From Westiellopsis prolifica IICB1 (lineage in GTDB: Bacteria > Cyanobacteriota > Cyanobacteriia > Cyanobacteriales > Nostocaceae), in NCBI RefSeq assembly GCF_004323185.1, contig NZ_NAPS01000003.1, positions 1 to 52,746 of the forward strand: DNA of 52,746 nt, read 5' to 3'. Shown piece by piece: positions 9,505-46,314 of this stretch (position 1 is the first letter of the stretch; every line of letters begins with the position of its first letter). A model generated the notes under the pieces. It saw only the letters and a list, made by a program, of their open reading frames with translations, made no database searches and was not told the origin of the DNA. The position numbers and the translations under genes are program-made.

Positions 9505-9686
9505 AACCCACATTCCGCACTTCAGAATGTAATATATAATGCTTCAACAAATCTTACAAAAAACCGTTAATGGTATTAAGTATTAACACTGCTATTTTTT
9601 AGGCTTTTGGCGATCGCTATTTAACTACCATTAGCCCAAACTTCATAAGACAAGCATATTACAAAATGAAGTGCGGAATGTGGGTT
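9505..9686. mobile_element. MITE-like element with 20-bp perfect terminal repeats
   Basis: AACCCACATTCCGCACTTCA at 9505-9524 is exactly repeated in inverted orientation at 9667-9686. The 142-bp AT-rich interior has no gene and includes a HIP1-like GGCGATCGCT. The right terminus overlaps the lysC stop codon (TAA on the minus strand, 9685-9687), so the insertion sits precisely at the end of lysC and supplies its stop. Confidence 0.75.
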
Positions 9687-11526
9687 ACAGACATGCAGAA
9701 ACCTGAATTTTTTGGCTATCGGCAAGCTCGAAGGCAGCGTGAATGGCTTGCAAAGCAGTAATACCCTGTTCTCTAGCCACTACACAGCTGATTTTGATTT
9801 CTGATGTGGCGATCAAAAGAATGTTGATTTGGTGCTGAGCTAGCGCTTCAAACATTCGTGCCGCAACACTTGGTTGTTTAATCATGCCTGTACCGACAAT
9901 ACTGATTTTGGCGATCGCATTGTCAAGGACGGCTTCACTCCAACCGAATTCTGCCGCTGCTTCTTGCAAGATTTTCTGGGCAATTTCCGCATCGATTTGC
10001 GCTACGGTGAACGTAATATCTCGTTTGGGAATGTTATCAATCCAGTGGTAACGCTGAGACTGAATGATCGTGTCAACACTGATACTGCGTTGCGCCAATA
10101 GTTCAAACAGCTTAGCTGCTATTCCTAGACGATCTGGTACTTGGCGAATGATGAGACGTGCTTGGTTCATATCCAAAGCAACACCCCGAACAGGGAGACT
10201 AAAGGAAGCTGAGGAAGTTCCTGAAGCGAAGGTGTACTTATATGTGTGTTTAGAAGCTGGGAAATTGTTTACTTCAAAGGCTTTACAGAGAGCTGCAACC
10301 GCACGCTCGCAATCTGCTGCATCAATCACGCAACTAATTTTCACTTCACTGGTGGAAATCATCTGAATATCAATGCCAATCTCTGCCAGTGTGGCGAACA
10401 TCTTGGCAGCGATACCAGGACGCCCAATCATTCCCGCACCAACGATGCTGACTTTAGCAATATCTTGCTCTACCACGACCTCAGCTTCTGTTGGTTTGGA
10501 GTTAGATTTGCGGCGGAATGCAGTGGCAATCCCCTCTGCCTCTGTTTCTACCCGTTCTAAAAACGGTGTTTTCACAGTAAAAGCAATATCGCTTGTATTT
10601 CCTTCTAAAAGCGACTGGGTAATCAAATCAACATCTACATTTCTGTAAGCAATTTTACTAAACAGTTGTGCAACTATACCTGGTTTATCAGGTATATATC
10701 GCAACATCATTTTAACGAAATTGGTATCGTATTCTACACAATCTACCGTTCGAGAAATCTCCAAATTATTGAGTGGTCGTGGTTCTGGCTTTGGTGAAAT
10801 TATCCAAGTACCTGGTTCATCTGTCATACTTGATCGTACAACCAAAGGCACTCCATAGTTACGAGCAATTTCCACTGCGCGGGGATGCATTACTTTTGCC
10901 CCCAAGCTGGCAAATTCCAACATTTCATCGCAGGTAATTTGATCCATTAACTGGGCTTCTGGTATCAAACGAGGATCTGTAGTTAAAATTCCTGGTACAT
11001 CAGTATAAATTTCACAAAAACTTGCTTTTAATGCTGCTGCCAAAGCAACTGCTGAAGTGTCGGAACCACCACGTCCTAGTGTAGTGATTTCCAATTCATT
11101 TATACTGGTAATTCCTTGAAAGCCTGCCACTACAACTACTTTACCTTCCTTGAGATGCCGTTCAATGCACTCTGTTTGGATATGCAGAATCCGAGCACGG
11201 GTGTGTTTTGGTTCTGTAATAATTCTTGCTTGCGCCCCCGTCAAAGAAATTGCTGGCTGTCCCAATTCCTGCAATGCCATTGAGAGTAGTGCAATGGAGA
11301 CTTGTTCCCCCATAGAGAGAAGCATATCCCATTCCCGGCGGCTAGGATTTTTGGAAATTTTGTTGGCTAATTCGGCTAGTTGATCAGTGGTTTTACCCAT
11401 CGCGGAAACTACCACTACTAGGGAGTGACCCGCTTTAACAGTTTTGCAGACTCTAGCTGCAACGGAGAGGATGCGTTCAACTGAACCAACAGAAGTACCA
11501 CCGTATTTCTGAACTATTAGGGCCAT
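9685..11526 (-). CDS. lysC: Aspartate kinase, four-ACT-domain type
   Basis: 613 aa. Phosphorylates aspartate in the first step toward lysine, threonine, methionine and diaminopimelate. The kinase domain opens with ALIVQKYGGTSVG and contains TTLGRGGSDTSAVA. From about residue 270 there are four ACT-type repeats in two pairs (KPGIVAQLF..., AKVSIVGAGMIGRPG, DRLGIAAKLFELL, AKISIVGTGMIKQPS), the feedback-regulatory layout typical of cyanobacterial LysC. Last gene of the co-oriented dap group, although a flavoprotein gene separates it from dapF. The stop codon is shared with a MITE end, so the natural C-terminus may have been trimmed by a residue or a few. Confidence 0.95.
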   Translation of the reverse strand: MALIVQKYGGTSVGSVERILSVAARVCKTVKAGHSLVVVVSAMGKTTDQLAELANKISKNPSRREWDMLLSMGEQVSIALLSMALQELGQPAISLTGAQARIITEPKHTRARILHIQTECIERHLKEGKVVVVAGFQGITSINELEITTLGRGGSDTSAVALAAALKASFCEIYTDVPGILTTDPRLIPEAQLMDQITCDEMLEFASLGAKVMHPRAVEIARNYGVPLVVRSSMTDEPGTWIISPKPEPRPLNNLEISRTVDCVEYDTNFVKMMLRYIPDKPGIVAQLFSKIAYRNVDVDLITQSLLEGNTSDIAFTVKTPFLERVETEAEGIATAFRRKSNSKPTEAEVVVEQDIAKVSIVGAGMIGRPGIAAKMFATLAEIGIDIQMISTSEVKISCVIDAADCERAVAALCKAFEVNNFPASKHTYKYTFASGTSSASFSLPVRGVALDMNQARLIIRQVPDRLGIAAKLFELLAQRSISVDTIIQSQRYHWIDNIPKRDITFTVAQIDAEIAQKILQEAAAEFGWSEAVLDNAIAKISIVGTGMIKQPSVAARMFEALAQHQINILLIATSEIKISCVVAREQGITALQAIHAAFELADSQKIQVSACL

Positions 11527-11698
11527 AACTGGTGTTTAGACTAAATAGACAAAGAAAAGGTATTTGTAAGTCACACAAATCACTTGACAATAGAAGAGGG
11601 AGTGGGCTCTGTTTTTCTTCCACATCCCCTTTTTGCCTCTACATTTCCTTGACAGATATCTCCAATGGGAAGAAGCTTAATCAAAAGATTGTGCGGTA

Positions 11699-13180
11699 TC
11701 AAGCAACAGCCTCGTGAGATACTTCGTAAGCAGTTGATTGCTTGAAGTTTGTTCTTATTGTCCTATTTGCTTCTGTAGTGACTTGAAGCAGTAACTCCTG
11801 TGCCAAAGCTATTGCCTGTTGTCGAATTTCAGGCACAGCCGTTATTTCCCAAAGCTCGCCTTTACGTGTTGAACCTAATGTATATAAGAGTTCTGAGGGC
11901 ATACCAGTCGCGTCCAATAGCGCACCATTAGGGGCACACGCTAAACCTATTTGCAAGGGGTCAGAGCAAATAAGACCCTGAGAAAACAGGTTGTTTATCA
12001 AGGGATGTTTCAACTTCTCATAATTGGATGCTGGACCAGTACAGTTCACAACACGGCTTGCCCGCAAAACGATATCTTCTGTTGTATGCCGCTTGCGAAT
12101 AGTTACATCAACTCCACAACTATCCTCGCGGTAGCCTAGAATGTGACCGGCATATACGACTAGTTGACCTGAAGAAAGTAGCTTGTTAACTATCTGTGCA
12201 ATCTCCGGCGCAATTCGATGACGGTGGATATCCCAGTAGGGACGAACGTGACGTAAAAACCGCTGCTGTTCTTTTACAGAAAGAGTCTGCCAGAGGTTCT
12301 GAGTTATCGGACGTAGCGAGTTAATGACAGTCCGCCAGTCTTGACCAGAAGCGGTAGCAAACTGCACCTGTTGACGGACAAGGTGGATCAACGCTCGAAT
12401 TGTTTTGGGAGCTGCTTCAACGGAAATAAAGGGAGGAATAGGAGGAGTTATTTTGTGGGGAAGAGGCAATAACCCATGTCGCGATACTGCATAAATCTTG
12501 CCTCTATGACCTTGCACAAATAAAGTGAGAATCAAATCTACCATAGTTAACCCTGTTCCAATTAACAAAACTGGGTCATCAGGGTCAAGACCTGTCAAAG
12601 CTTCAGCAGAATAGGCATTGCCTTTGTAGCGGCTGCTTTTGTAGAAAGAGCGTTCTTGTACCCACGGGTCGGCTGGAGGAAAATTGCCCACAGCCAAAAC
12701 TATTCTGTCTGCTCGTATAACCCGACCGCTACTTAGGTACACAGTTGCATCGCGATCCCTCGGCTTAATGTCAAGTGCTTCGTCAGTTATCCGTTCTAGA
12801 TACACGTAGTTGGAGGCATTGATTTCTGATTCATCCAAGATAGCCTGAATGTAATCACCGTAAATCTTGCGTGGAACAAAAGTGTTTACCGTCACAACAG
12901 AGGCTACAAAATTGTCAATCGTGTAGTTTTGTTTTTGAATCCAATGTAGGAAGTGATTGGGGTGATCGGGAAAAGCGCTGATTTGACCGGCAAGAGCATT
13001 TAGTAGATGATAGGGAGAATAGGTATCGTAAGCGACTCCTCGTCCTAACAGTGAATTGCGTTCAATCAATTTGATATTAAGAGGATAAGTTGCTGTCTGT
13101 AGTAGATGAGTGGCAACCATAGAACCACTGAAGCCACCACCGATAATAGCGATGGTAGTAGAAGAATTGTCTTTATGCAT
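11699..13180 (-). CDS. FAD/NAD(P)-binding flavoprotein (NAD_binding_9 type)
   Basis: 493 aa. N-terminal dinucleotide-binding motif IAIIGGGFSGSMVA (about 9-22), ERNSLLGRGVAYDT, a NADP-type second motif VLLIGTGLTMVDL (about 205-217) and RVVNCTGPASNY near the end. These are hallmarks of the FAD-dependent oxidoreductase family with two Rossmann folds. The substrate cannot be read from sequence. Lying between lysC and dapF it may be an oxygenase or oxidase tailoring a lysine/DAP-derived compound, which is inference only. The ATG at 13180 has no strong ribosome-binding site that I can see. Confidence 0.75.
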   Translation of the reverse strand: MHKDNSSTTIAIIGGGFSGSMVATHLLQTATYPLNIKLIERNSLLGRGVAYDTYSPYHLLNALAGQISAFPDHPNHFLHWIQKQNYTIDNFVASVVTVNTFVPRKIYGDYIQAILDESEINASNYVYLERITDEALDIKPRDRDATVYLSSGRVIRADRIVLAVGNFPPADPWVQERSFYKSSRYKGNAYSAEALTGLDPDDPVLLIGTGLTMVDLILTLFVQGHRGKIYAVSRHGLLPLPHKITPPIPPFISVEAAPKTIRALIHLVRQQVQFATASGQDWRTVINSLRPITQNLWQTLSVKEQQRFLRHVRPYWDIHRHRIAPEIAQIVNKLLSSGQLVVYAGHILGYREDSCGVDVTIRKRHTTEDIVLRASRVVNCTGPASNYEKLKHPLINNLFSQGLICSDPLQIGLACAPNGALLDATGMPSELLYTLGSTRKGELWEITAVPEIRQQAIALAQELLLQVTTEANRTIRTNFKQSTAYEVSHEAVA

Positions 13181-13341: not shown

Positions 13342-14199
13342 TTAATGGCTAAATCCCAAACTAATTTTGCCTGTGAAAACTCGCGTGGCTTGTCCTGTCA
13401 TGTAAACACGTTGATCTGTGGCTGACCACTCAACTTGCAAACAGCCACCAAGAAGTTCTACAGTTGCAGTGTAATTGCACCTTCCTGTCAACACACCAGC
13501 CACTAATGACGCACAAGCACCAGTACCACAGGCTAAGGTGTTACCTGCACCCCTTTCCCACACCCGCATCTTAACGTAGTCAGGACGCACCACCTGGATA
13601 AATTCGGTATTTGTCCGTTGTGGGAAAGCTGGATGATATTCAAAGTGTGGACCTATTGTTTCTAGAGGAATTGTTGCTACATCTTCTACAAAAGTAATAC
13701 AGTGGGGATTACCCATGCTCACACAGGTGACATTCCAGGTTTTCCCTGCAACTTCTAGCGGCTGATTAATGACTTTTTCCTCATCTGGGCAAAGCGTTGT
13801 GGAAATTTCGCTAGCCAGTAACCTAGGTACACCCATATCCACTTTGACTTGATCATTTGGCATAAGTTGGGGTGTAATGATACCAGCCAGGGTTTGAATG
13901 TGATATTGAACGCTTTTTCTGGAATTACCCTCTAAGTCAGCCAAAAAAGCGGCTAAACAGCGTATACCATTGCCACACATTTCCGGTTCTGAACCATCAG
14001 AGTTGAAAATCCGCATGGTGTAGTCAGTACCGTTTTCTCCAGGTAAGGCAAAAATAACACCATCTGCACCGACACCAAAGTGGCGCTCGCACAAATATAC
14101 CACTTGTTCTGAAGTCAGTACGGGTTGTGATGAGGAGCGATTGTCAATCAAGAGGAAGTCATTACCTAAACCATGATACTTAGTAAATTCGATTTCCAT
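13342..14199 (-). CDS. dapF: Diaminopimelate epimerase
   Basis: 285 aa. Converts LL- to meso-diaminopimelate by two-base (two-Cys) racemisation in the cytoplasm. KYHGLGNDF at the N-terminus, EMCGNGIRC with the first catalytic Cys (about residue 80) and LACGTGACAS with the second (about 225). Full length for the family. It follows dapL in the same orientation after about 165 nt, and the group dapA-dapB-dapL-dapF covers dihydrodipicolinate to meso-DAP. Confidence 0.96.
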   Translation of the reverse strand: MEIEFTKYHGLGNDFLLIDNRSSSQPVLTSEQVVYLCERHFGVGADGVIFALPGENGTDYTMRIFNSDGSEPEMCGNGIRCLAAFLADLEGNSRKSVQYHIQTLAGIITPQLMPNDQVKVDMGVPRLLASEISTTLCPDEEKVINQPLEVAGKTWNVTCVSMGNPHCITFVEDVATIPLETIGPHFEYHPAFPQRTNTEFIQVVRPDYVKMRVWERGAGNTLACGTGACASLVAGVLTGRCNYTATVELLGGCLQVEWSATDQRVYMTGQATRVFTGKISLGFSH

Positions 14200-14365: not shown

Positions 14366-15601
14366 CTACACTTTAAACTTCTCGATAATTCGCTGCATTG
14401 CCTCTTCCACATTCTCTCGGCTATTAAATGCTGAAATGCGGAAGTAGCCCTCCCCTGCTGCACCGAAGCCAGAACCAGGTGTACCTACTATATTGCAGAT
14501 ATGCAGCAAATAATTGAAGAAATCCCAACTTGACAAACCATTAGGTGTTTTTACCCAGATGTAAGGCGCATTCACACCACCATAAACCAATAACCCGGCG
14601 GCTGTCAGCTTCTCACGAATAATCTTAGCGTTTTCCAGATAAAAACTAATGAGTGCTTTGATTTGTGCCTGTCCTTCCTCAGAGTAGACTGCTTCGGCTC
14701 CGTGTTGTATAATGTAGGACACACCATTAAACTTGGTGGATTGGCGACGACTCCATAGCTTCCACAGTTCGACATCAGAACTATCTGCGGCTTTTGCCTT
14801 GAGTGTTTTCGGCACAACTGTGAATGCACAGCGGGTACCAATAAAGCCTGCATTTTTGGAAAAGGAGCGGAATTCGATCGCACACTCTCTTGCTCCTTCT
14901 ATCTCATAAATGGAGTGGGGAATTGACGGATCGGTGATAAAGGCTTCATAAGCTGCATCGAAAAAAATAATGGAGCCATTTGCAAGAGCGTAGTTCACCC
15001 ATGCTTTCAGGTGATCTTTGGTGGCGACAGCGCCAGTGGGGTTATTGGGAAAGCAGAGGTAAATTAAATCAACCTTCCGAGAGGGAATCGTTGCGGTAAA
15101 ATTGTTTTGCGCTGTAATCGGTAGATATACTAAACCCTCATATTCACCTTTATCCTTGACAGATCCGGTATGTCCTGACATGACGTTGGTATCCACATAG
15201 ACAGGATAGACAGGGTCTGTGACAGCAATAATGTTGTCATTGCCAAAAATATCAAGGATATTACCTGTGTCACACTTTGAGCCGTCGGAAATGAAGATTT
15301 CGGATGCATCAACTTCGCATCCCCGTGCCTGGAAATCGTGAACTGCAATTTTCTCCCTCAACCAGGCGTAGCCCTGCTCTGGTCCGTAGCCTTTGAAGGT
15401 GGCGTAATCACCCATGTCTTCCACTGCTTTAATCATCGCCGTGCGGCAAGCTTCTGGTAGTGGCTCTGTAACATCGCCAATCCCCAGCCGGATAATCTTA
15501 GCATTAGAATTAGCTTCCATAAAAGCACTGACCCGCCGCGCAATTTCAGGAAACAGGTAACCTGCTTTCAGCTTAAGGTAGTTATCATTAACAGTTGCCA
15601 T
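14366..15601 (-). CDS. dapL: LL-diaminopimelate aminotransferase
   Basis: 411 aa. PLP enzyme converting tetrahydrodipicolinate directly to LL-DAP, the route used by cyanobacteria and plants in place of DapD/C/E. N-terminus [23 protein letters not shown] lysine in [15 protein letters not shown] (about residue 250), [10 protein letters not shown] earlier. Length and motifs are standard. The gap to dapF has no obvious gene. Confidence 0.96.
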
Positions 15602-15730: not shown

Positions 15731-16570
15731 TTAGAGTATTTTTTCTAATCCATATACCAATGACTTTAGCTGTAACACTTTGCGAATTGCCAGTAACACT
15801 CCAGGCATATAGCAAGAGCGATCACTTGTGTCGTAACGAAGGGTATAGATTTGACCGGGCGCGCCAAAAATTACTTTCTGATGGGCAATCAGCCCTGGTA
15901 ATCGGACGCTATGAATACGAATGCCTTTGTCTAGTAAACTACCCCTGGCTCCCAGTAACTTCTCCGTCTCCTCAACAGGTTGTTTATTAAACTCTTTACA
16001 GATTGTTGCCAGCATCTGAGCAGTGTGAATTGCCGTGCCACTAGGAGCATCTGCTTTTTGGTTGTGATGCAGTTCAATGATTTCAACGTGGTCAAAATAG
16101 TGAGATGCTGCCATTGTAGCTTGTTGCAGCAGAACTATACCAATCGAGAAGTTAGGGATAATCAGACACCCTACACTAGCTTTATCGGCAAAATCTGCCA
16201 AATCTTGAATTTGTTCTGGACTTAACCCTGTGGTGCCAACAACAGGATGGATACCGTATGCGATCGCGCTGCGAATACTATCATATGCTGAACTGGGATG
16301 GGTAAAATCTACCATTACCCCTGGCTGTATTTTCTGAGTTATAAAGGTTAGCGTCGGTTCCAATTGATTAGTAATTGGAATTCCTAGGGGCTTACCCAAA
16401 CCCGCTAGCTCCCCAGCATCTTTACCTTGATATTCTAGACTCGTGTCAATTGCACCCATTAAAGTCATATCCGGCGCTTGTGCTACAGCCTTCACGATCT
16501 CACGACCCATTTTGCCAGCAGCACCATTGATAATAACTGGAATCTTGAATTGATCAATCATTTTTATCAC
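15731..16570 (-). CDS. dapB: 4-hydroxy-tetrahydrodipicolinate reductase
   Basis: 279 aa. NAD(P)H-dependent reduction of the DapA product. Nucleotide-binding motif [13 protein letters not shown] (about 14-26), [22 protein letters not shown], and the catalytic signature [15 protein letters not shown] (about 160). Two ATG codons lie close together (16570, 16561); the first is taken. Separated from dapL by about 130 nt and from dapA by a 366-bp spacer holding a MITE-like repeat. Confidence 0.96.
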
Positions 16571-16936: not shown

Positions 16937-17935
16937 TTACAGTTTATGAATCTTTCTATCAGTTAGGGAAGTTGTAAATTTGTCAAAATCTGAATCAAAT
17001 AATGTTTTCAGGTATTTTGTTTTTCCAGTCTGATAGAAGAGGGTGAAACCAAGTTCCTTCAGAATCGCCTCTAACTTTTGACTCACTTCTACGGAGTCTT
17101 CGTCATGTAGCGGTAGACGAGTTAAATCAACCTTCCAATTTAGAAGTTTGAGTGCTATCTTGACTGGGATAGGATTTGTAGTTGCAAACAACGCTTTAAA
17201 CAACGGAAAGAGTTGTAGATGAATATCGCTTGCCACTTGAATTTGACCTGCACTAAAGGCTTGGATCATCTGCTGTAGTTGGTTTCCTACCAGATGAGAA
17301 GCCACACTCACCACACCCTTTGCCCCAATTGCTAATAAGGGTAAGGTTAAAGAATCATCACCAGAGTATATGTGGAATTCTTTTGGCGTTAGGCAGCGAG
17401 TTTGGCTTGCCTGATCTAAATTTCCACTAGCTTCTTTTATCCCGATAATGTTGCTAATCTCAGCTAAGCGGGCAACTGTTTCTGGTTGAAGATTTTGACC
17501 AGTACGACCGGGAACATTGTATAGTAATAACGGTAAATCGAGACAGGCTTGCGCTATTACCTGAAAGTGTTTGTAAAGCCCTGCTTGCGGCGGTTTATTG
17601 TAATAGGGAACAACTTGTAAAGAACCGTGAACTCCTATTTGAAAGGCTTTCTGAGTCATAGAGATTGCTTCCTTAGTAGAATTGGAACCACATCCTGCTA
17701 TGACTTTGGCTTTACCTGCCACTGCCTGTAACACTACAGCAAGCAACTGGTATTTCTCCTCCCAAGTCAGAGTAGGCGATTCTCCTGTTGTGCCACAAAC
17801 CACCAATGTATCTGTACCGTTGTTAACTAGATGTGCTGCCAATTCTGCTGCTACATCATAGTTGATACTGCCGTCTTCTTTAAACGGCGTAATCATAGCG
17901 GTTAGAACTCTTCCAAAATCTACCATTTTCTCCAC
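16937..17935 (-). CDS. dapA: 4-hydroxy-tetrahydrodipicolinate synthase
   Basis: 332 aa. Condenses pyruvate with aspartate semialdehyde. [18 protein letters not shown], the GTTGESPTL motif (about 47-55), catalytic Tyr in [10 protein letters not shown] (about 138) and Schiff-base Lys in [10 protein letters not shown] (about 165). The family is normally about 290-300 aa; the last ~35 residues ([14 protein letters not shown]...) form an unusual C-terminal extension. asd, often its neighbour in cyanobacteria, is absent, suggesting a cluster-dedicated extra copy. Confidence 0.95.
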
Positions 17936-19486: not shown

Positions 19487-19845
19487 TTTTACCCCCCAAA
19501 TGATTTTGATTGATAAATTAAATGAAACAGTTAAGCACAAATATATGGAAGATGACACGAAGCGGGAACGCGGCAAAGATCCTTGAAAACTCAAACACAG
19601 TTATCGTGGTAAGTACTAACGCAACTTGCTAGTTAGTGTCTCTAAATGGTATCAAATGGATAGAAAATATCCTACGATATCTAGTTTTAGGCACAAAACT
19701 TTAAGATTTTGTACTTAAAAATAGGTGCTTTTTTATAACTAGCAACTTGGGTTACTAAGATACCAGTAATCATGTCAAGGATTTCCACAAGTCTTATTTA
19801 AGTAACCTGGTTAATGACCGAATACCACTTCATGTCGCCTACCAT
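19487..19845. other. Spacer with 14-bp inverted repeat
   Basis: No gene. CAACTTGCTAGTTA (19622-19635) and TAACTAGCAACTTG (19736-19749) form an inverted repeat with 13 of 14 matches about 100 nt apart. Between them ACAAAAC...GATTTTGT makes a smaller hairpin. This could be a small MITE or the end structure of the NRPS transcript. Confidence 0.45.
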
Positions 19846-26581: not shown

Positions 26582-26934
26582 TATCTTCTCCAAGTTAAAA
26601 AACTGAAATTGAACTTACTGAACCAAACTTTATTCAAGGAGTTGAATAAAGATGATTGCTGATATCACTTAATGCAGCTTTTCATGAATTTGTAGTGTAT
26701 TGGTTTGTAGTTGCGCTTTAATATTCTTCAAATGGGCATTCCTGAAATTTTAGGTCAATTTATCCGAGCCCGCAGTCAGAGTCAGGAATGCCTTCATTTA
26801 TGTAGCACTTGTACAAACAATGGTCAGGTAACTGGCGTAGATTATAAGCTCTCAGAGATCCTCTTACCCGGAGCATAAATCTTCTAAACCAAGATGCCAG
26901 TTTTTGCAACACAATCAAAAGAGCTATTCATAGT
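26582..26934. other. cysC-sulfotransferase spacer with inverted repeat
   Basis: No gene. GGCATTCCTGA (26735-26745) pairs with TCAGGAATGCC (26782-26792) to form an 11-bp stem with a 36-nt loop. It could be a processing or attenuation hairpin between the sulfotransferase and cysC transcripts. Nothing else is recognisable. Confidence 0.5.
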
Positions 26935-30177: not shown

Positions 30178-30206
30178 AATGAGGTTTCTTGATTTTCATT
30201 CCAATT

Positions 30207-33200: not shown

Positions 33201-34193
33201 CAACTGCTCATTCTCAAACACCACTGCTGTTGCATTGGGTGTTTGCTTTACTTGCTCTTCAAATAATTGGTGAATACATTTGTTTGGTAGATAGTCTGAT
33301 TTGTTAGCATTCCACTTTACTAATAGTTGGTACTGCTCAGTTTTTGTCAACAAAGATAATTTAGAAATTTGTTGCTGCCGATTAGCAATAATATCCGACA
33401 GTAAAGTTTGAAATTGTTCTGCCATCCTGGCTATCGTTTTAGCTTCGAACAAATCAGTACTGTACTTCCAACAAAGCTGAATCTGTTGATCGACTTCTAT
33501 CATTGTCAGATAGAGATCGAATGCTCCTCCCTGCTGTTCTCCAAGTAAATACGGCTTCATTCGAAGCTCTTCTCTTCTGATTACAAGTGAATCGTTTGGC
33601 TGGTACCAACTTTGCTCTTCAGCACTAAAAGCAACTTTTAAAAAGGAGGATCCGTTATACTCTTGTTGAGTTCTTATCCACTCACTAACTAGAGAAAAGG
33701 GGTAATCCCTATACCTTTCAGCCTCTTCCAATACATGATGAACTTGAGCAAGAACTTCTTTGAAAGTTATGTTTCCTGTTAGATTTACACGACAGATAAC
33801 CGGATTAGCCATCATGCCGACAACTCCTTCAAACTTTTCGATCTCAGGCCAACTGCTTGTTAATGGCACTCCGATCAGTATTTCCTCTTGACCTGACAAG
33901 CGTAGTATTAACGTGCAGAAGGTAGCAAGCACAATAGTGAAAGTATTTGTTTCTTCTGCTTTTGCAAGTTTTTTAAGTTGAGAGATTAGAGAAGTATTTA
34001 GATTGTCAAGATGTACATCTCCACGAAAACTTGACAACGGAGAGTGTGGTCGATCAGTGGGCAGATTTATGGGTGTCAAAGGAGCAGCTAATTGTTTCTT
34101 CCAGTATGCCTCGAGTTGTTCACCTCGAGAGCTGGCTAACATTTTAGACTGCCAAAATACATAATCAATGTACTGCAGATTCTGATTATTCAC
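30207..34193 (-). CDS. NRPS module: C-domain C-lobe, A, T, thioester reductase
   Basis: 1328 aa from GTG 34193, preceded by GAGG. Residues 1 to about 290 are the second half of a condensation domain (starts at LQYIDYVFWQ; GGAFDLYLTM). A domain about 310-790 (YVIYTSGSTGNPKG at about 456, YGPTEATITT, LYKTGDLVRYRTDG). Carrier Ser in LGGHSLLAIKL (about 883). Reductase from about 960 (FLTGATGFIG; STLSVF; GYAQSKWVAEQ). Pocket code by eye is D-A-E-N-I-G-T-I-T-K, close to the lysine code of bacitracin synthetase (DAESIGSVCK), so lysine is the predicted substrate. The missing first half of the C domain is encoded by the preceding gene. Confidence 0.92.
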   Translation of the reverse strand: MNNQNLQYIDYVFWQSKMLASSRGEQLEAYWKKQLAAPLTPINLPTDRPHSPLSSFRGDVHLDNLNTSLISQLKKLAKAEETNTFTIVLATFCTLILRLSGQEEILIGVPLTSSWPEIEKFEGVVGMMANPVICRVNLTGNITFKEVLAQVHHVLEEAERYRDYPFSLVSEWIRTQQEYNGSSFLKVAFSAEEQSWYQPNDSLVIRREELRMKPYLLGEQQGGAFDLYLTMIEVDQQIQLCWKYSTDLFEAKTIARMAEQFQTLLSDIIANRQQQISKLSLLTKTEQYQLLVKWNANKSDYLPNKCIHQLFEEQVKQTPNATAVVFENEQLTYRELNSRANQLAHYLQALGVKSEMLVGICVERSLEMIVGLLGILKAGGAYLPLDPAYPQERLAYVLEDSQIPVLLTQNKLLQKLPSNKIRVVCLDADSIAISEFSNNNPVSNTGNNNLAYVIYTSGSTGNPKGVMIEHRSLVNFTLDAIVQYGFNQNTRALQFASISFDAAGEEIYPCLTSGGTVVLKSNEMLASIPTFMQKCQDYSITILNIPTAYWHLLVTELAANPKLAFPDCIHTVIIGGEKANPQLIAKWQKYIGDFPLLFHTYGPTEATITTTTYKLPPKAWICDNSQTDKFTQLPEVPIGRAITNVTTYVLDSYQQLVPIGVVGELHIGGVCLARGYLNRSDITEQKFIPNPFSSEPGARLYKTGDLVRYRTDGNLEFVGRIDHQVKIRGFRIELGEIEVALTTYPDVREAVVLARKDQSGSNYLVAYVVPYSILTPSLQHTITQQLRSYLSQKLPDYMIPSSFVLMESFPLTQSGKVDRKKLPTPVQVKSEHETVSTLLSASILPDQRLSTTESVIAAIWSEVFELEQVGIHDNFFELGGHSLLAIKLINRISNKLSVELTVPNLIENPTIAQIAQVVARAQQAESKDEYCFDKAVDLKAEAVLDSTIQFQGSLNKEIIEPKSIFLTGATGFIGSYLLAELLQKTNSDIYCLVRCPHNDYGKQRIEKYLKSSFLWNTDYSFRIIPVLGDLAKPLFGLTKQKFEELAKHIDVIYHNGAWVNFVYPYSTLKAANVLGTQEILRLASFTKIKPVHFISTLSVFSRNYSQIKQVLEIETPEFEENLENGYAQSKWVAEQLVKIAKNRGLPACIYRLGTVIGSSSTGVMDKPDDFFLNLLKGCIQLKKAPSLQIAFNLTPVNYVSQAIVHLSRQKKSLGKLFHVINPTYLPSDKLFNAIRSLGYPLEQISYEKWLTELKSEDEDTLENALHQFLPDLSSEDDFYEHSLHYDYHHTLEELATTSIACPPIDEKLLNKYFSYFQKTGFLPSPPTK

Positions 34194-34564
34194 GGTAAGT
34201 CCTCAACCAATGAAACTACGTTACTTTTTCCACAGATTTATTATCAATAGCTTAAAGCTAATGACAAGAGTGAACGAAAAAACTAGGGCTTGAGCAATAG
34301 CTTTGCCAAAAAAAGAGGTAGTCTAACTTTTGCCGAAACATCCCAAGACAAGCCTGTGCTTAATTATTAGGTAAAACCTAGAATCCTCACTCAGACGTAC
34401 AGGACAGTTAAAATTACTTCCACAAAAACCATACAGGATTTTATTGACTCAGTTTTTTATCATCAGGCAAAAAGAAGCCTGTATTATCTGGGTTTTTTCT
34501 ATATCAAACTTGGGAACTTGGCGAAGGTATTGACTTAGAAAGTTATTAGTTTTCATTCTCACTA
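34194..34564. other. Non-coding gap inside a split condensation domain
   Basis: 371 bp, AT-rich, without open frame, exactly between the two halves of one condensation domain. Only a small hairpin (CAGGC/GCCTG near 34460) is visible. The halves break at a surface loop, losing about ten linker residues. I see no intron-type boundary and no IS remnant, although neither can be excluded by eye. Confidence 0.6.
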
Positions 34565-35137
34565 TCATCCTCTAGAGCTTTTAGAATTTAGTATTCCTAC
34601 TTCAACAGCGTACAGTCGCTGAAGTTCGCTTAGTAATATGTTAATGGAGCGCATTTCACCCGCGATCTCGTGCATGGTTAGCAGTTGGATATAGTCCTGT
34701 ACCGATCTTTTGAATAGATATATCCGTAGTACTGGACCATTTTTTAGATCGAAGGGCTGCCTTACCTGTCTCAATATCTGTTCTTTAAGCTCTTTCTCAC
34801 TCCAAGTTGAAGTATCTGTTACCTCAAGCTTAACTTTGTGGTGTGGATGAATTACTTGAATGGGTCGATTATCGCGGTTAGTGTAAGTTGTCCGAAGAAT
34901 GGCGTGGCGATCGACGATCTTCTGCCAAGTCTGCTGCCATACTTCTACATCTAAGGCTGAGGTAATTTGTACTGTAGAGTAGATGTTGTAAGCCACGCTT
35001 TCCGGTGCCATCTGATAGATGAGCCACAAATCTCTTTGATTGTAAGAAAGGGGATAAAAAGCTAGAAAATCTTCTTTGCATCCACCTATTTTTTCTCCGG
35101 CTCGTAATACTTCAGTACCATTGTATTGTGTCTCCAT
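34565..35137 (-). CDS. NRPS condensation domain, N-terminal half
   Basis: 190 aa. FYPLSYNQRDLWLIYQMAPES (C1/C2 region), RHAILRTTY (C2), QPFDLKNGPVLRIYLF, then the active-site position reads MHEIAGEMRS where HHxxxDG is expected: first His kept, second His replaced by Glu, Asp by Glu, Gly by Met. The gene ends (NSKSSRG, stop) just after this helix, where a normal C domain continues with the segment encoded at 34193. Ribosome-binding GAGAG precedes the ATG. Either a two-chain domain with altered chemistry or a decayed one. Confidence 0.8.
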   Translation of the reverse strand: METQYNGTEVLRAGEKIGGCKEDFLAFYPLSYNQRDLWLIYQMAPESVAYNIYSTVQITSALDVEVWQQTWQKIVDRHAILRTTYTNRDNRPIQVIHPHHKVKLEVTDTSTWSEKELKEQILRQVRQPFDLKNGPVLRIYLFKRSVQDYIQLLTMHEIAGEMRSINILLSELQRLYAVEVGILNSKSSRG

Positions 35138-35522
35138 AAACTTACTCTCTAGCTAATATCAGTAGGTCGAAAACTTTTGTAAGTTGAGGAAATAATTAGG
35201 ATTCCAGCCGATGTTTTTGGGCTGATGATTGCGAACGCTTGTACTGCACTCTTAACCCATCGACAACGCCTGTTCCTTGAAAAATAAATTTCGAGACGAT
35301 TCCAGCAGATTGTGTTCCAAAAATCAAATGAATGCTTGGTAAGGGTTGTGGAAAACTTTTCGAACTGCTGAATGTGATTTATGTTTTCAATTTGCACAAA
35401 GTTTCTAAACAGCAATGAACTCAGCAATTATGCTACAGAATTGTGCGTTAAGATAGGCACAAAGTTTCGCTACCAAGAATCTACGTTAAGGTTTCAGTGA
35501 TGAAAGCTTTTTTCAGCTTAAT
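35138..35522. other. Upstream region of the NRPS genes
   Basis: 385 bp between the first NRPS gene and an IS remnant. A 92-codon minus-strand frame (35149-35427) has no resemblance to anything I know and starts at a rare codon context, so I do not call it. The promoter for the minus-strand run of genes is expected here, but no clear -10/-35 pair stands out. Confidence 0.4.
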
Positions 35523-36424
35523 CAGGACTTACGCAACTGGCACAGGCGATCGCTAATTTATAGTACCTTTGTATTATATAAGTGACGCAACTGGCACAGG
35601 GTGATCGCTAGTGTACATCAGTATTAATTAAATCTGATTCCGAAAGCTTTGTCTTGGCAATATAAGTCGGTGTATTGGAAGCAAAGAATGAAATATTCAT
35701 GAGAAAATAAGTAGAAGTTGTATGAGATAAATGTTGCTTACGGTAATGAGATTTACTAAGCTTAATTACTGCCAATACTTATTAAGTAGTCAAATTAATT
35801 ATACGATGACCAATTTGGCAGAGCATTTAAAGAGTATTAGCCATGATGCAATTAACTACTATTTGAAGAGAGAAAAGTTAACACCTCGGTTACTCTGGGA
35901 TAATGTGAAATAGGTAGTAGAAACTGATCTCAATGGTTACATCATCTTTGATGATAGCGTTTGAGACAAAAGGTATTCTGAAGAAATAGAAATAGTCAGG
36001 AGACAGTATAGTGGTAATGAGCATGGTGTAGTCAAAGGAATTGGTGTAGTCAGCTGTGTATATGTAAATCCTAAACTGCAAAAATTTTGGGTAGGAGGTT
36101 GTACAAAAGGTGTGTAAAATTCGTTGGAAAATCGAGGAGTTTCACAGAGAAATTAAACAATTAACTGGCATTGAATCTTGTCAATGCCGTAAAGCTAGGC
36201 TCCAAAGAAATCATATTGCTTGTGCAATGTTAGTTTGGGTTAGGTTAAAGAATTTAGCTTATACCACTGGTCAAACTATTTATCAAATCAAGCATAACTT
36301 GCTTTCTAATTATTTAATTCAGCAACTAAAACGTCCAAGTATTCTTATGTGCTTGGTTTGATTTGAATTGTCGCGGGGTAAGGCGCAGTCGTGCCCACTA
36401 TTTGTACCAGTTGCGTAAGTCCTG
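35523..36424 (+). mobile_element. IS701-like element, internally deleted
   Basis: 18-bp perfect terminal repeats: CAGGACTTACGCAACTGG at 35523-35540 and its complement at 36407-36424. The left end contains a second copy of the subterminal unit ACGCAACTGGCACAGG (35531-35546 and 35585-35600, period 54). Inside is a transposase with the middle third deleted, so it is non-autonomous. Confidence 0.8.
35731..36361 (+). pseudogene. IS701-like transposase remnant
   Basis: N-terminal part LNYCQYLLSSQINYTMTNL, AEHLKSISHDAINYYLKREK, then in-frame TAG (35910) and TGA stops flanking GYIIFDDSV and DKRYSEEIEIVRRQYSGNEHG. After QKFWV the sequence jumps to VCKIRWKIEEFHREIKQLTG, skipping the central catalytic segment. 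It ends at 36361. The family is recognised from the conserved segments RRQYSGNEHG and IRWKIEEFHREIKQ. Confidence 0.8.
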
Positions 36425-36431
36425 TTAATAA

Positions 36432-36526
36432 TGGATATTTTCAACTTACCTTACATAAATATCTAACAATATATAAAATTTAAACAAGCTTAGATCGGGG
36501 AGTTAATCAGGAAGTTAAGGAATTGT
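36432..36526. repeat. Direct repeat copy A (pair with 41707-41801)
   Basis: About 95 bp, roughly four-fifths identical by eye to 41707-41801, including the shared core ACAAGCTTAGATCGGG and GAAGTTAAGGAA. It lies between the IS701-like element and the IS630 and is non-coding. Confidence 0.7.
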
Positions 36527-36542
36527 AAGTTGCAAAGTCATA

Positions 36543-37678
36543 CTAATCCGCGTTCTAAAACGTAATTCTCAAATGTGGAAAATTCGTAAGTGAACGTAAT
36601 CTTTCTGGCATATCCATTAATTCTCTAAGCCCTTGGCACAGGGTATCAATAACGTCATGCATCGAATCAAACACTCTGTTGTAGAAATGCTTTTCGCGTA
36701 CCTCCTCCCAGATATGCTCGACTGGATTTAGCTCTGCACTACGAGGCGGCTGGGGAATTAACCGAATATTCTCGGGAATAATTAAATCACTCGATGTATG
36801 ATATGAAGCTTGGTCTACCTGTATGATGACAAAATACGCCGCAAAAACTTGTGCCACATGCTCTAGAAATAAACTCATCATATCCGTGTTCGCACAAGGT
36901 AAAACTAATGCTGCCATCTCTCCCAACGATGGTGCAACTGCCACATAAGCATAAGTATATTCTCTTACTATCTGTTGACCAACACAAGGACGTATTCCTT
37001 TAGGACTCCAAGCTCGCATTACTTGACCAATACGCCCAAATCTTCCTTGATCGGCTGCCAACAGGAGTACGGGACGATTATCGTCTGATTCTCGGCTGGA
37101 GATGGCTTGTTCGACCAGTGAGCCAAAGTTTTTTTAAAAGCTTCTTGTTGTTGTTGGTCGCCTTTGGGATGATAAGGACGAGGTGTTAATTTACGCCAAC
37201 CATGACGCTCTAATAATCGATAGATGGTACTGGAATCAACCTCAGTACCCACCAGTTGTTCAAATGCCCTCAGGATCTGAGTAATCGTTGTGATACTGCC
37301 TGTCTGTGCGGCATCGCCAAATTGTTCTAAAAATGCGGCTTCCTCTTCTAGACTCAGGTAGCTGTTGTGCCTACCTCCTTTTCCTGAAGTCTCAATTGCT
37401 GCTACTCCCATACGGTTATAGTCACAAATCACCTGGTGTACTGTTCTGACTGTTGTACCCGTATGTAGAGCGATCGCACTCGCTGATCTAGGTTCCACTA
37501 AAGCATTGTAGACAATCAGCCATTTCTGTTGTCTGCGAGGATTGTCGCTTGTCCCTATTTTTTGTTTGATTTCTTCTAACGCTAGATGCGCCTTTACTCT
37601 ACTTACTCTCACCATAACTATGTATTTATTTCAACTCCCACCTATTTCATCTATTTTACGCTTTTGAACGCGGATTAG
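36543..37678 (-). mobile_element. IS630-family element, copy 1
   Basis: Flanked by TA dinucleotides (36541-36542, 37679-37680), the target duplication expected for IS630. Terminal inverted repeats start CTAATCCGCGTTC (36543 on) and match the complement ending at 37678 (GAACGCGGATTAG). Contains one complete transposase in two frames. A second, broken copy lies at 50829-51683. Confidence 0.9.
36555..37615 (-). CDS. IS630-family transposase, -1 frameshift type
   Basis: The first frame (37615-37019) gives the HTH half: HTGTTVRTVHQVICDYNRMG, STIYRLLERHGWRKL, HPKGDQQQQEAF. At TTTTAAAAAAAC (about 37128-37139) a -1 slip links KK to NFGSLVEQAISS, LLAADQGRFGRIGQ and the DDE half (first Asp in AADQGRFG, second in IIQVDQASYH, Glu in LNPVEHIWEEVREKHF), ending at 36555. 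The A7 run at the join fits programmed frameshifting used by many IS630 elements. It seems functional. Confidence 0.85.
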
Positions 37679-38042
37679 TATCAGTAGATCACTGTGACGT
37701 TTAACGGGATGTGGAAAAGGGAGACTATTGCATAAAGATAAACGTAAAATTGTATACTGCGCTTTGTTTGGCAAGTTAAATCTCCGAGAGCGAAAAATTT
37801 CGGGGGAGATGGGGTAAATAATGCTGTAAGTAGTTAGGACTTACGCATTGACAAAGTTGCCAAGAAGTGCGTTAAGCGAAGACAATCAAATTTTTAGGCG
37901 ATCGCTAACTAACAGGAGGATTAAAAGACGGATAATACCTATGTTGTGATGATGATATAGGGTTAGGGCTATCAGAGAGACGACTAAGCCTGTCCCCTGC
38001 CAAATGTGACCTGGACACTTACACTTTATTCTTATTGGCAGG
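37679..38042. other. Spacer with an IS terminal-repeat copy
   Basis: No intact gene. AGGACTTACGCA at 37836-37847 repeats the outer part of the IS701-like termini at 35524 and 36423, so another element end lies here, probably belonging to the transposase fragment that follows. A stem ATCTCC...GGGAGAT sits near 37782-37810. Confidence 0.5.
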
Positions 38043-38327
38043 GTGGAATTTAAAGCATTACATTCAATACATTGGGGGATTGAATGTTACCACAGAAGAA
38101 TCAAGCAAGTATGTGGTATTGAACGTTTTATGGTCAGAACAACTGAAGCTATCCATACTCACTTTTTTACTCACTTTTTTAGCGCTATTCGTGCCTTTAC
38201 TAAATTAGAGTTAATGCGAGCAGAAGAGTTAATTGAAAACTGGTATGAACTCCAAAAAAAATTATCTCTTCAGGTCGCTCGTGACTTCATACTAGAGCAT
38301 CTGCAACAGCAAGTGATTTTGGTTTAG
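38043..38327 (+). pseudogene. Transposase C-terminal fragment
   Basis: 95 codons: EFKALHSIHWGIECYHRRIK, QVCGIERFMVRTTEAIHTHF, then LMRAEELIENWYELQKK. These are the conserved end of a cyanobacterial DDE transposase. A 12-bp internal duplication gives THFFTHFF. Its stop overlaps, tail to tail by 4 bp, the 3' end of the KAS III-like gene. Confidence 0.75.
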
Positions 38328-39499
38328 AACTCATCCCTATTTCCCACCCCACCGAATGTGTTTCTTGAAAGAGTTCTAGCTGAGGAACTTTTCGTTCGCT
38401 CCAAATCAGCTTCATTAAGGGGAGCAGGACCTAACGCTACTTTGCCCCAGCGCATCACACTTGCAGAGGCAGTACTGGCTGGACCGAAGCCGTAAATGAG
38501 AACCAAATCATTTTCGCGAATCTTACCTAAGTGTGCAGCATGGTACAGATTAACTACAGTCAGTGCTGGTCCTATGTTTGCATAGAGAGGGGAAACATTG
38601 ATCGTGCGCTCTGGGCTAATGCCCAGTACACGTGTACAGAAGCTTGCAAACCAAGCGGTGGGTGTATTGAAAATGAAAAAGTCGATTTGATCGAAGGTTA
38701 CATTGGCTTTCTCGACAGCGCCCTCGCAACACGTACGAAGAAGTCCTGTAGCCGTTTCGCCGATTACCTTGTTCGTGTCCTTTGCCACCTGCATACGGAT
38801 TTGCGGATTGCCCTGCTTATCCAGAGTAAGTTTAAAAAAGAATTGGTCACACAACACGCTGGTATTAACAGCCTTTGTGCCAAGGATACCCTGATTTGGC
38901 TCGACTGAACTAACTACGAAAGCTCCAGCACCGTCACTAAAAAACCAAGAGAGAGTATCGTCCTCATCGAAAAAACGAGAGTATGTACATGAGATTACTA
39001 CCAGCACATTGCGGTAAGCTCCTGCTTGTACCAAGGCACAGGCAGTTTGAAGTGCAACTGGAGTACTACCACACGTTGCATCTAAATTCCATGCACCACT
39101 TTGTATCTGCAGTTGACGAGCAAGGAAGGTGGCATTGCCAAGCCCGATGTGTTCAGGTAAGAACGAGGCAACGATCAGGAGATCGACATCGTTGCGGGAA
39201 AGCTTTGCCGCGTCGAGAGCATCCTTTGCTGCCCGATACTCCAGCGTCAGCGAAGACTCGCTCGGACCAAGGAAGCGCCGCTCAACGGTACCACGAAATG
39301 GGTCTCTGAGATATGGCATCATTGCCAATTCAAACTCATTTCTGGGAGTAGATTCAGCAGACGAAAACAGTCTTGCCAAACCTTTTTGTTCGGCCTGAGC
39401 AATCAACTCGGGGTATTTTTCTCTGTAGTAATCGTTTGTACGAATTATGCTTGGAAAACTTACGGCAAGGGAGCGAATACCTACCGGACAATGCACCAT
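38324..39499 (-). CDS. KAS III-like (FabH-fold) acyltransferase or ketosynthase
   Basis: 391 aa from ATG 39499, chosen because AAGGAGA lies 8 nt before it and inside the longer reading from 39517. Thiolase-fold: LDATCGSTPVALQTA holds the catalytic Cys (about 143). At the usual His position the sequence reads FFIFNTPTAWFASF, Asn instead of His, and YANIGPALTV supplies the Asn-loop. N-terminal VGIRSLAVSFPS is normal. In KAS III relatives used in secondary metabolism such changes accompany C-C or O-acyl transfer rather than fatty-acid initiation. Follows the ThDP enzyme by 19 nt. The C-terminus (about 30 aa after ALGPAPLNEADL) may have been altered by the neighbouring IS fragment. Confidence 0.85.
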   Translation of the reverse strand: MVHCPVGIRSLAVSFPSIIRTNDYYREKYPELIAQAEQKGLARLFSSAESTPRNEFELAMMPYLRDPFRGTVERRFLGPSESSLTLEYRAAKDALDAAKLSRNDVDLLIVASFLPEHIGLGNATFLARQLQIQSGAWNLDATCGSTPVALQTACALVQAGAYRNVLVVISCTYSRFFDEDDTLSWFFSDGAGAFVVSSVEPNQGILGTKAVNTSVLCDQFFFKLTLDKQGNPQIRMQVAKDTNKVIGETATGLLRTCCEGAVEKANVTFDQIDFFIFNTPTAWFASFCTRVLGISPERTINVSPLYANIGPALTVVNLYHAAHLGKIRENDLVLIYGFGPASTASASVMRWGKVALGPAPLNEADLERTKSSSARTLSRNTFGGVGNRDEF

Positions 39500-39518
39500 A
39501 ACAAATCTCCTTTGCATT

Positions 39519-41363
39519 TCACAGCTTTTGCGAAGTTAGATTCTCTATACGACTCCCAATTGGCGCAGGTCGAGTCGGGTCGATTACGACGTCAACAACG
39601 AACGGACCACTTGCTGCCATCGCTTTCTCTAGTGCCGCTTGGACATCAAACTCCCTTTCGACGCGGATGCCATCAGATCCCATCCCCTGTGCAATCTTGA
39701 CGAAATCTGTCTGCGAAATCTTCGCATTCACTCCCTTAAATCCCAGCAACCTCATCCCCTGGTCACACATGTTGTAACGTGAGTCGTTGAGTACAATCCA
39801 GACAGCAGGAATTTGGTGTTGCACGGCTGTGCTGATCTCGCTATTCATAAGCATGGCACCATCCCCGACAATGGCAACAGCTTTGCCATTGCGCGCCAGT
39901 GCGGCACCCACGACGCCCGTGACAGCATGACCCATTGCTCCAAACCCGGTACTGACTCGGTAACGCCCTGGTTTGTTAAATCGTAGAAGGTAATTTCCCC
40001 AAGCAAACGAGTTACCTGCCTCGGTCATCACCACAGCATCGCTTCCCTCGACGATTATCCGTTGAATCGCATTCATGAGTACCTCGGGTCGCACCAGACC
40101 ACCCACGCTTGGATTGATTACATCGCGCTCAGGTCTCGGCAGCGACACAATTGTTGATCGACTAGATCCCTCTGGAAAGTACTTCAGCAGCGCCTTTACG
40201 AATACCCCCACATTAGATTGGATGGCTAACGTGTCGATAGATGGATACGCTGTTCCTGGCACCTCTGGGTCGATATCAACATGTACAAAGCCTCGTTCTG
40301 GAATCATCACGGGATTCCAGAACGAGGTGAATTCACCTAGGCGTGTTCCCAGTACCAACGTGTGCCAAGGACGCTGCTCCTGCATATATTTCAGAACCGA
40401 CGCATGTCCAGCAAAGCCTGTGACGCCTATAAATTGAGGATGATCCTCTGGAAAGATACCTTTGCCGCGCGGCGAACACATCACTGCTGCTCCTGTTCTT
40501 TCGGCTAGCTGGCGGATTTCTTTTGCAACGCCCCGCGCACCGAAGCCCACCCAGATGGCAAATGAACCAGAGGACAACAGTCTTGCACATTCCGAAATTG
40601 TTTCCTCACTTACGGTTGCAAGAATTTGAGGGAGAGTCACTCGTGGTAACGATGTTTTGAGTAAACTAGTCTGGATGGCTGCGGGAATACTCAGATGAGC
40701 TACGAAACTTCCTGGCCTTGCTAGACCGACAGCGAGTCTTTTGGTGATCTGTGGGAGTTCATCACTGCATTCGAGGGTAGTCGCATAATCGAACAGTGTT
40801 CCCGAGGTAAAAACACCAGCGTTCGGCATTGTATACGTACTGGTTTCCTGAAAAGCCCAACGTCCACGTTGTGGTGCCGAGGTGGAAGGCGACAGAAAAA
40901 TTACCTTAGCGCCCTCCCAACGTGCAGCGAACAGTCCAGTCAGTGCATTAGTGATGCCCGGGCCCATTGTGGTAAACACTACAACCGGGCGACCACTAGC
41001 AAAGTACGACTCGACAGCTGCAAACGCAGCTCCTGCCTCGTGGCGAAAGTGAAACACCTGGATCGAGCTATGTTGCAGTTCTGCCCACAGCGATGCGATC
41101 GCGCCTCCCGATACACCAAATGCATATTCCACTCCCATATTTTCCAGCATCTTAACCACTACCTTGGCTACCGAGAGAGGAGCAAATTGCTTCTTGTTGA
41201 AAACAGGTATGATGTCCTGCACGGTGTTTTGCTGAACATTTGGGAGAGGCGATTGAAGCAAGGATGACAGGGATGATAGAGAAATGGAAGATTTAGAGGA
41301 TTGCTCGAGTGAATCTAAATGTTCAGCAGTATTTGCGTTTGTATTCTTAGATTTAGTGTTCAT
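39519..41363 (-). CDS. ThDP-dependent acetolactate-synthase-like enzyme
   Basis: 614 aa. The first ~55 residues are a Ser/Asn-rich extension. PYR domain: SVAKVVVKMLENMGVEYAFG, catalytic Glu in FHFRHEAGAAFAA (about 125). Central domain about 240-370. PP domain with the ThDP/Mg motif GDGAMLMNSEISTAVQ...VLND (about 510-540). The fold makes C-C bonds from 2-oxo acids and aldehydes (acyloins or acetolactate). Its pairing with a KAS III-like enzyme resembles the XclA and XclB/XclC pair of xenocyloin biosynthesis; ScyA of scytonemin is another secondary-metabolic relative. True ilvB is less likely since no ilvN-type subunit is present. Confidence 0.88.
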   Translation of the reverse strand: MNTKSKNTNANTAEHLDSLEQSSKSSISLSSLSSLLQSPLPNVQQNTVQDIIPVFNKKQFAPLSVAKVVVKMLENMGVEYAFGVSGGAIASLWAELQHSSIQVFHFRHEAGAAFAAVESYFASGRPVVVFTTMGPGITNALTGLFAARWEGAKVIFLSPSTSAPQRGRWAFQETSTYTMPNAGVFTSGTLFDYATTLECSDELPQITKRLAVGLARPGSFVAHLSIPAAIQTSLLKTSLPRVTLPQILATVSEETISECARLLSSGSFAIWVGFGARGVAKEIRQLAERTGAAVMCSPRGKGIFPEDHPQFIGVTGFAGHASVLKYMQEQRPWHTLVLGTRLGEFTSFWNPVMIPERGFVHVDIDPEVPGTAYPSIDTLAIQSNVGVFVKALLKYFPEGSSRSTIVSLPRPERDVINPSVGGLVRPEVLMNAIQRIIVEGSDAVVMTEAGNSFAWGNYLLRFNKPGRYRVSTGFGAMGHAVTGVVGAALARNGKAVAIVGDGAMLMNSEISTAVQHQIPAVWIVLNDSRYNMCDQGMRLLGFKGVNAKISQTDFVKIAQGMGSDGIRVEREFDVQAALEKAMAASGPFVVDVVIDPTRPAPIGSRIENLTSQKL

Positions 41364-46304: not shown

Positions 46305-46314
46305 GGAATAGCTT

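Follow-up and report, generated by a model that had tools for sequence, protein, structure and literature searches.

We analyzed a 52,746-nucleotide stretch of Westiellopsis prolifica IICB1 DNA (hereafter the window; the start of contig C12 in a genome of 7.3 Mb and 29 contigs), in which positions 9685-41363 of the minus strand had been described, in an original prediction made from the letters alone, as one cluster of about 32 kb for a single product. Our analysis identified instead a patchwork of four or more blocks, and the reading that we tentatively favor, with somewhat less than even confidence, is that a duplicate aspartate-to-diaminopimelate (DAP) cassette feeds the reduction of lysine or DAP by enzymes with adenylation, thiolation (carrier) and reductase domains (A-T-R), followed by sulfation. 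The most likely output would be a small, sulfated and reduced lysine or DAP derivative (an amino alcohol O-sulfate, possibly cyclised by loss of the sulfate) and not a peptide, as the run holds no intact condensation (C) domain, its only one being split and degenerate. The run comprises 18 ORFs, or 17 genes when a split C-A-T-R gene is counted once, and the ORF calls together with Pfam and NCBIfam profiles bear out every gene listed in the original prediction and their shared strand, including the reductive enzymes, the genes for 3'-phosphoadenosine 5'-phosphosulfate (PAPS) supply and sulfation, and the acyloin-type thiamine diphosphate (ThDP) enzyme. What did not stand is the unity of the locus as a conserved cluster: in the genomes examined only subsets of the gene set occur, an outcome that the original prediction had itself named as its refutation, the ThDP enzyme and its ketoacyl-acyl carrier protein synthase III (KASIII)-like partner being found alone, and both an A-T-R enzyme with an aldo-keto reductase (AKR) and a DUF1254-sulfotransferase-cysC block being found without DAP genes.

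The supply side of the proposed route is encoded at the downstream end of the run, where the following genes were predicted (other copies are those in the same genome, with their identity):

16937-17935, minus strand: dapA (profiles); other copy at C8:597356, 77%
15731-16570, minus strand: dapB (profiles); other copy at C1:1975614, 79%
14366-15601, minus strand: dapL, LL-DAP aminotransferase (profiles); other copy at C8:1266466, 88%
13342-14199, minus strand: dapF (profiles); other copy at C1:175491, 81%
11699-13180, minus strand: FAD/NAD(P) flavoprotein (NAD_binding_9 profile), between dapF and lysC
9685-11526, minus strand: lysC, aspartokinase (profiles); other copy at C1:3381881, 72%

Since lysC, dapA, dapB, dapL and dapF each have a second genomic copy (5/5, at five separate sites on contigs C1 and C8, 72-89% identity), we regard them as a duplicate aspartate-to-DAP cassette; second copies of all five genes are more than chance, and they support the dedicated DAP/lysine supply that had been claimed for the locus. 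Neither asd nor lysA is among the cassette ORFs. Among the 31 dapL proteins of a tree, the window copy had no firm placement and stood apart from the four same-genus copies, so that a recent duplication of the second dapL in this genome is unsupported as its origin. The other lysC (G000:C1:3381836-3383793) reads as two ORFs in different frames (1337-2833 and 2860-3294 of the fetched stretch); the window lysC may be the sole full-length lysC of the genome, an assembly error at the other copy being possible. A literature search on DAP duplication, with most subscription journals outside its reach, found no paper. Five duplicated primary-pathway genes beside reductases resembling nonribosomal peptide synthetases (NRPSs) would be a strong genomic clue to both precursor and product.

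Directly upstream of the cassette lies the pair of genes that links the window to other phyla:

19846-23562, minus strand: ATR, about 230 residues without Pfam match, then A (code DSWDLGTIGK), T and R domains
18503-19594, minus strand: AKR, partner of ATR (profile); start likely near ORF residue 37, from alignment

Orthologs of ATR (92%) with an adjoining AKR (93%) were found in Rhizonema PD37 and PD38; in genome G133, an ATR ortholog of 94% identity follows an NRPS and an ORF judged by eye to be MFS-like. At E<=1e-60 the AKR was detected in 5 of 217 family genomes, namely its own, the two Rhizonema, a fragment in G133 and a fifth genome of the same genus label (46% only). Distant ATRs (33-44%) are encoded in Tistrella, Embleya, five Streptomyces, Trinickia, Pseudomonas GM48, Mariprofundaceae and a Pseudonocardiales metagenome-assembled genome (MAG). 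AKR and ATR share a locus in Tistrella, Rhizonema, Streptomyces, Trinickia, Pseudomonas GM48, Mariprofundaceae and Pseudonocardiales, the exception being Embleya, whose ATR has nothing better within 20 kb than an AKR match of 25-28%. Plasmid searches with ArgG-like, ATR and AKR relatives as queries listed 15, 15 and 25 matches, respectively, and among the 15 listed for ATR only Tistrella and Embleya came near 43-44%.

The code DSWDLGTIGK is present in 11 of the 13 rows of this module, the other two having DSWDIGAIGK and DSWDIGTIGK. Thus the pattern DSWD(L/I)G(T/A)IGK covers 13/13 module rows, including the window, vs 0/18 generic cyanobacterial A-T-R rows, and is not that of CATR, the second A-T-R enzyme of the window (below); a set of six of the 18 generic rows likewise lacks the module code, and five of these have one code in common. 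An A-domain tree of 26 rows, which took in 12 of the 18 generic ones, split the 13 module rows from the 12 generic rows and CATR at 100/100, and A-domain identity to the window ATR is 38-94% for module rows and 31-35% for generic ones. Judged by sequence, the ATR-AKR family spans Cyanobacteria, Actinobacteria and Proteobacteria with one conserved specificity code, and this code, together with the neighboring genes, suggests lysine as a candidate substrate of ATR. Literature searches on the code, on lysinol with a reductase domain and on lysinol with a relevant cluster found nothing relevant, most subscription journals being outside their reach; this silence is no evidence of an undescribed family. 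With one code from Cyanobacteria to Pseudomonas, for which no assignment was found, a single in vitro assay could suggest the substrate family-wide.

A pattern scan of the GTDB genome collection with the AKR turned up 215 relatives, and the neighborhoods of the 80 best were all scored. Loci in which an ATR-like match covered 600 residues or more (12/80) were counted as ATR-positive, and the other 68 served as controls. A sulfotransferase is encoded in 9/12 ATR-positive loci vs 1/68 controls, an ArgG-like protein in 8/12 vs 1/68, a LysE-family exporter in 7/12 vs 0/68, cysC in 2/12 vs 0/68, and lysA or lysC in 2/12 vs 0/68, counts in which the five Streptomyces are one lineage, loci L027 and L028 come from a pair of Rhizonema MAGs, the queries for lysA, LysE, ArgG and one of the sulfotransferases were drawn from L048 and L078 and hence match themselves, and several AKR loci are cut by contig ends. 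The sole control with both a sulfotransferase and an ArgG-like protein is Actinomadura kijaniata. As for lysine-pathway genes, the Pseudomonas GM48 locus has lysA (405.4 bits, cut-off 297.9) and the Pseudonocardiales locus (L078) an aspartokinase-type gene; in Embleya, which lies outside the AKR scan, a lysA-like gene adjoins ATR at 140.6 bits, below the cut-off of 297.9. The recurrence of the AKR/A-T-R pair beside sulfotransferases in unrelated bacteria may be a sign of a pathway, as yet undescribed, to small molecules that are sulfated or closed into rings. Given this frequent company, the single in vitro assay mentioned above could also bring to light a route in which sulfate serves as the leaving group on the way to strained amines. 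The ArgG-like neighbors, encoded in AKR/sulfotransferase loci of Actinobacteria and Proteobacteria (L029, L041, L048, L055 and L078), resemble argininosuccinate synthase but are divergent and score under the argG cut-offs; they had zero match within the window. The Mariprofundaceae locus (L055) also encodes a second sulfotransferase of another family (Sulfotransfer_3; 7840-8886) and a P-type ATPase.

These neighbors bear on a rather unlikely alternative, that the cassette is unrelated to the NRPS-like genes and represents a spare primary-metabolism operon that landed in an island rich in mobile elements. The 567 bp between AKR and dapA, the mobile elements on both sides of the run, the Rhizonema genome G049 with its single high-identity dapL, and the two-ORF state of the other lysC, by which the window lysC may be needed, are all consistent with it. 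However, uninterrupted copies of dapA, dapB, dapL and dapF elsewhere in the genome mean that no spare was needed for those four, and lysine-pathway genes occur in two distant ATR loci and in none of the 68 controls.

The sulfation genes, upstream of ATR, form one block with the CATR and ADH genes described further below (C-A-T-R/ADH/DUF1254/sulfotransferase/cysC/sat); they are listed here with the SnoaL/NTF2-like gene that lies between them and ATR:

27758-29122, minus strand: DUF1254/DUF1214 protein (profile); its 91% ortholog adjoins the sulfotransferase ortholog in genome G243
26935-27690, minus strand: PAPS-type sulfotransferase (Sulfotransfer_5 profile); orthologs in G243 (94%) and G034 (55%)
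26030-26593, minus strand: cysC, adenosine 5'-phosphosulfate kinase (profiles)
24648-25820, minus strand: sat, ATP sulfurylase (profiles)
23825-24367, minus strand: SnoaL/NTF2-like protein (profile)

The window sulfotransferase was matched in 9 genomes at E<=0.001 (119 relatives). In G243, which carries the same genus label as Rhizonema, the sulfotransferase (94%), DUF1254 (91%) and cysC (91%) orthologs adjoin a carbamoyltransferase and an A-T-R enzyme that is 53% identical to CATR and has no C domain; in the 40 kb fetched there was no ATR-AKR pair and no DAP-gene match bar a 27% aminotransferase match. This G243 locus (C132 929-19167) also encodes a short-chain dehydrogenase/reductase (SDR), a chorismate-binding/GATase fusion (ADC-synthase-like), a cupin, a class IV aminotransferase-GNAT fusion and a histone-deacetylase-like protein, the start of its A domain is present twice, and it perhaps represents an undescribed sulfated or carbamoylated pathway. 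The next relative of the sulfotransferase (55%, in G034) lies beside an NRPS, with methyltransferase-like and SDR-like ORFs read by eye. A Dolichospermum plasmid offers a more distant comparison: its genes CyrJ/CyrN, presumably of the cylindrospermopsin cluster, include a sulfotransferase matched by that of the window and followed by cysC, but identity is just 26% and the other genes listed for it are not those of the window, a MATE transporter excepted.

The second A-T-R enzyme and its partner occupy the following positions:

34565-35137, minus strand: N-terminal half of the C domain (Condensation profile 4-158), with MHEIAGE at the HHxxxDG position
34194-34564, no strand: non-coding intergenic gap of 371 bp that splits the C domain
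30207-34193, minus strand: CATR, C-terminal half of the C domain, then A (code DAENIGTITK), T and R domains (Pfam)
29161-30177, minus strand: zinc alcohol dehydrogenase (ADH); nearest NCBIfam model the Ahr aldehyde reductase, 355.7 bits, below the cut-off of 470

HHxxxDG is the motif expected of a condensation domain. The gap (374 bp with the stop codon) was rejected as a repeated element, with only one 35-bp match of 86% elsewhere in the genome. The CATR code has Glu at its third position, as is usual in codes for basic amino acids, and in the tree the CATR A domain falls with those of the generic loci L009, L017, L019 and L022, which also have Glu there. Both A-T-R enzymes carry the motifs of A, T and R domains (GGHSL, GATGFIG and YAQSKW in CATR). 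We consider it highly doubtful that the locus is decaying, a remnant invaded by insertion sequences (IS) that yields nothing: the split, degenerate C domain and the IS debris beside it fit such a history, but the other ORFs span most of their profiles, the motifs of both A-T-R enzymes are present, and the CATR homologue of G243 is encoded without any C domain.

The closest named relative by profile is the myxochelin synthetase MxcG, a C-A-T-R enzyme acting on lysine, which shares the A-T-R architecture and reductive release and is the top NCBIfam match for both ATR and CATR. However, the two score 521.4 and 817.2 bits against NF038078 (cut-off 2300), the window holds no intact C domain, and no aryl-acid genes are among the ORFs scanned. 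L-aminoadipate reductase of the Lys2 type differs as well (TIGR03443, 436.2 and 610.7 bits, cut-off 1030.1).

On the reading that we favor, the five cassette genes would boost DAP or lysine supply, ATR would load lysine or DAP on its carrier domain, its R domain would free the aldehyde, and AKR would turn this aldehyde into an amino alcohol. CATR and ADH would perform a like reduction, probably of another basic amino acid or of the other carboxylate of DAP. The sulfotransferase, supplied by sat and cysC, would form a sulfate ester on the alcohol, and the sulfate could be kept as a charged group or lost as a neighboring amine closes an aziridine or a larger ring. DAP, and not lysine, might be the scaffold, with both carboxylates reduced to give 2,6-diaminoheptane-1,7-diol or a ring that is then sulfated; the cassette ends at meso-DAP without lysA, and two A-T-R enzymes with two aldehyde/alcohol reductases would fit two carboxylates, but an ATR with the same code lies near lysA in Pseudomonas GM48 and the codes of the two window enzymes are unrelated, and we hold this version to be unlikely.

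A bolder proposal, which we consider improbable, is a cross-phylum enzymatic counterpart of the Wenker reaction, in which A-T-R and AKR would reduce lysine or DAP to the amino alcohol, a sulfotransferase would form the sulfate ester, and the amine would displace the sulfate to give an aziridine or azepane, fed here by its own aspartate-to-DAP copy. Known precedent comes from azinomycin, whose aziridine forms by sulfation and then attack of the neighboring amine according to the review PMC9570651. The azinomycin/vazabitide azabicycle resembles our proposal in that a sulfate ester activates an alcohol next to an amine, which displaces the sulfate (same source), but differs in that its substrate is made from glutamate by a carrier-protein and transketolase route, whereas here an A-T-R reduction of lysine or DAP is predicted and ring closure is only proposed.

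Several observations weigh against the favored route. The window and G034 sulfotransferases fall outside the group of sulfotransferases from AKR/A-T-R loci (tree, 100/98), which rules out orthology with them and implies either that a sulfotransferase joined a reductive A-T-R enzyme more than once or that the window copy is far diverged. The ATR-AKR contigs of Rhizonema and G133, on which another NRPS adjoins the pair, have neither DAP genes nor a sulfotransferase, the Rhizonema genome G049 has zero match to the window sulfotransferase, and none was found within 20 kb on either side of the Tistrella pair. Over their whole length the ATRs of Pseudomonas GM48 (35%) and Mariprofundaceae (33%) are no nearer to the window ATR than generic enzymes; as overall identity is at the generic level, only code, A domain and tree join them to the family. 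The AKR itself comes from a wide family: the 78 loci outside Rhizonema encode AKRs of 58-69% identity, and the majority of these loci lack ATR. The neighbors that point to lysine as the ATR substrate come from just three lineages, and the LysE-family exporters, which fit LeuE/RhtB-type (homoserine/threonine) models better than the lysine exporter, are weak evidence for it. The cassette lacks lysA and is set off from AKR by the gap mentioned above, and cyclisation after sulfation would be chemistry by analogy.

The remaining block lies at the upstream end of the run:

39519-41363, minus strand: ThDP enzyme, ScyA-related/CybE-like acyloin synthase (Pfam TPP_enzyme N/M/C)
38324-39517, minus strand: KASIII-like protein, partner of the ThDP enzyme in a CybF-like position (ACP_syn_III, ACP_syn_III_C)
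35138-38323, no strand: IS debris (DDE_3/HTH_33 ORFs, inverted repeats), separating this pair from the rest

The ThDP enzyme passes NF035927 (TPP_ScyA_rel; 1046.8 bits, cut-off 1000) and falls below ScyA proper (NF035923; 962.5 bits, cut-off 1020); its best sequence matches in the PDB are BbmA (8x3x, 8xod), with CsmA fourth. A literature search on BbmA/CsmA brought up only papers that looked unrelated. Of 217 family genomes, 104 have a KASIII match at E<=1e-30, and in 13 of the 14 loci fetched the two genes are neighbors (KASIII 66-79%, ThDP enzyme 56-79%), G014 having KASIII only; the window genome has a second pair of its own at C8:1434824. None of the 14 loci has the window's sulfotransferase or DAP set, the nearest being one ordinary dapL (86%) about 9 kb off and one 23% adenylation-type match. 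By its homologs, the pair is a common stand-alone module, probably of the furanolide type (CybE/CybF-like), separate from the rest, and would act outside the lysine/DAP route. CybE is a TPP-binding enzyme and CybF a 3-oxoacyl-ACP-synthase, co-localised also in Plesiocystis (PMC8777810), their reactions are described in PMC13288894, and CsmA and 'BpmA' are named as CybE homologues in PMC12395478. The putative likeness to cyanobacterin biosynthesis lies in the adjacent ThDP enzyme and 3-oxoacyl-ACP-synthase homologue, judged by family and PDB relatives and not by the CybE/CybF sequences; the difference is that no ammonia lyase (CybB) or CoA ligase (CybC) gene adjoins the window pair or is among the 30 window ORFs scanned.

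Spacing shows two tight groups. The ThDP and KASIII genes are 1 bp apart, the gaps within CATR-ADH-DUF1254-sulfotransferase are 29, 38 and 67 bp, looser gaps of 129-567 bp cover the rest of the run, with the widest between AKR and dapA, and 3186 bp of IS debris part KASIII from the C-domain fragment. An element at 36540-37681 in this debris, which we take to be of the IS630 type, has 26-nt inverted repeats enclosing a transposase that is spread over two ORFs with an overlap (DDE_3, HTH_33), and a second inverted-repeat pair of 22 nt lies within the same 3.2 kb. A single pathway from the ThDP enzyme through lysC, leading to one sulfated, possibly acyloin-containing lysine compound, would agree with eighteen co-oriented ORFs of complementary chemistry; it is very unlikely, however, with the ThDP/KASIII pair widespread alone and cut off by the debris, the other blocks found separately, the full set in no other locus seen, and the only C domain split and degenerate.

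The flavoprotein has homologues in 28 other genomes (118 relatives). A role in DAP metabolism was rejected, as three homologues (68-71%), fetched with 17-20 kb, had no adjoining DAP genes. In G059 and G007, which have its closest homologues, the gene immediately precedes an ORF that by eye resembles the metallo-beta-lactamase fold, and a link to sulfur metabolism is possible.

Finally, the run is flanked on the left by a serine recombinase, a transposase and a WD40 protein, and on the right by a transposase and MATE and RND-efflux genes. Just past the island, on the plus strand at 44737-50851, MATE, HlyD and AcrB-type efflux genes are encoded, for which export or self-protection is a possible role.

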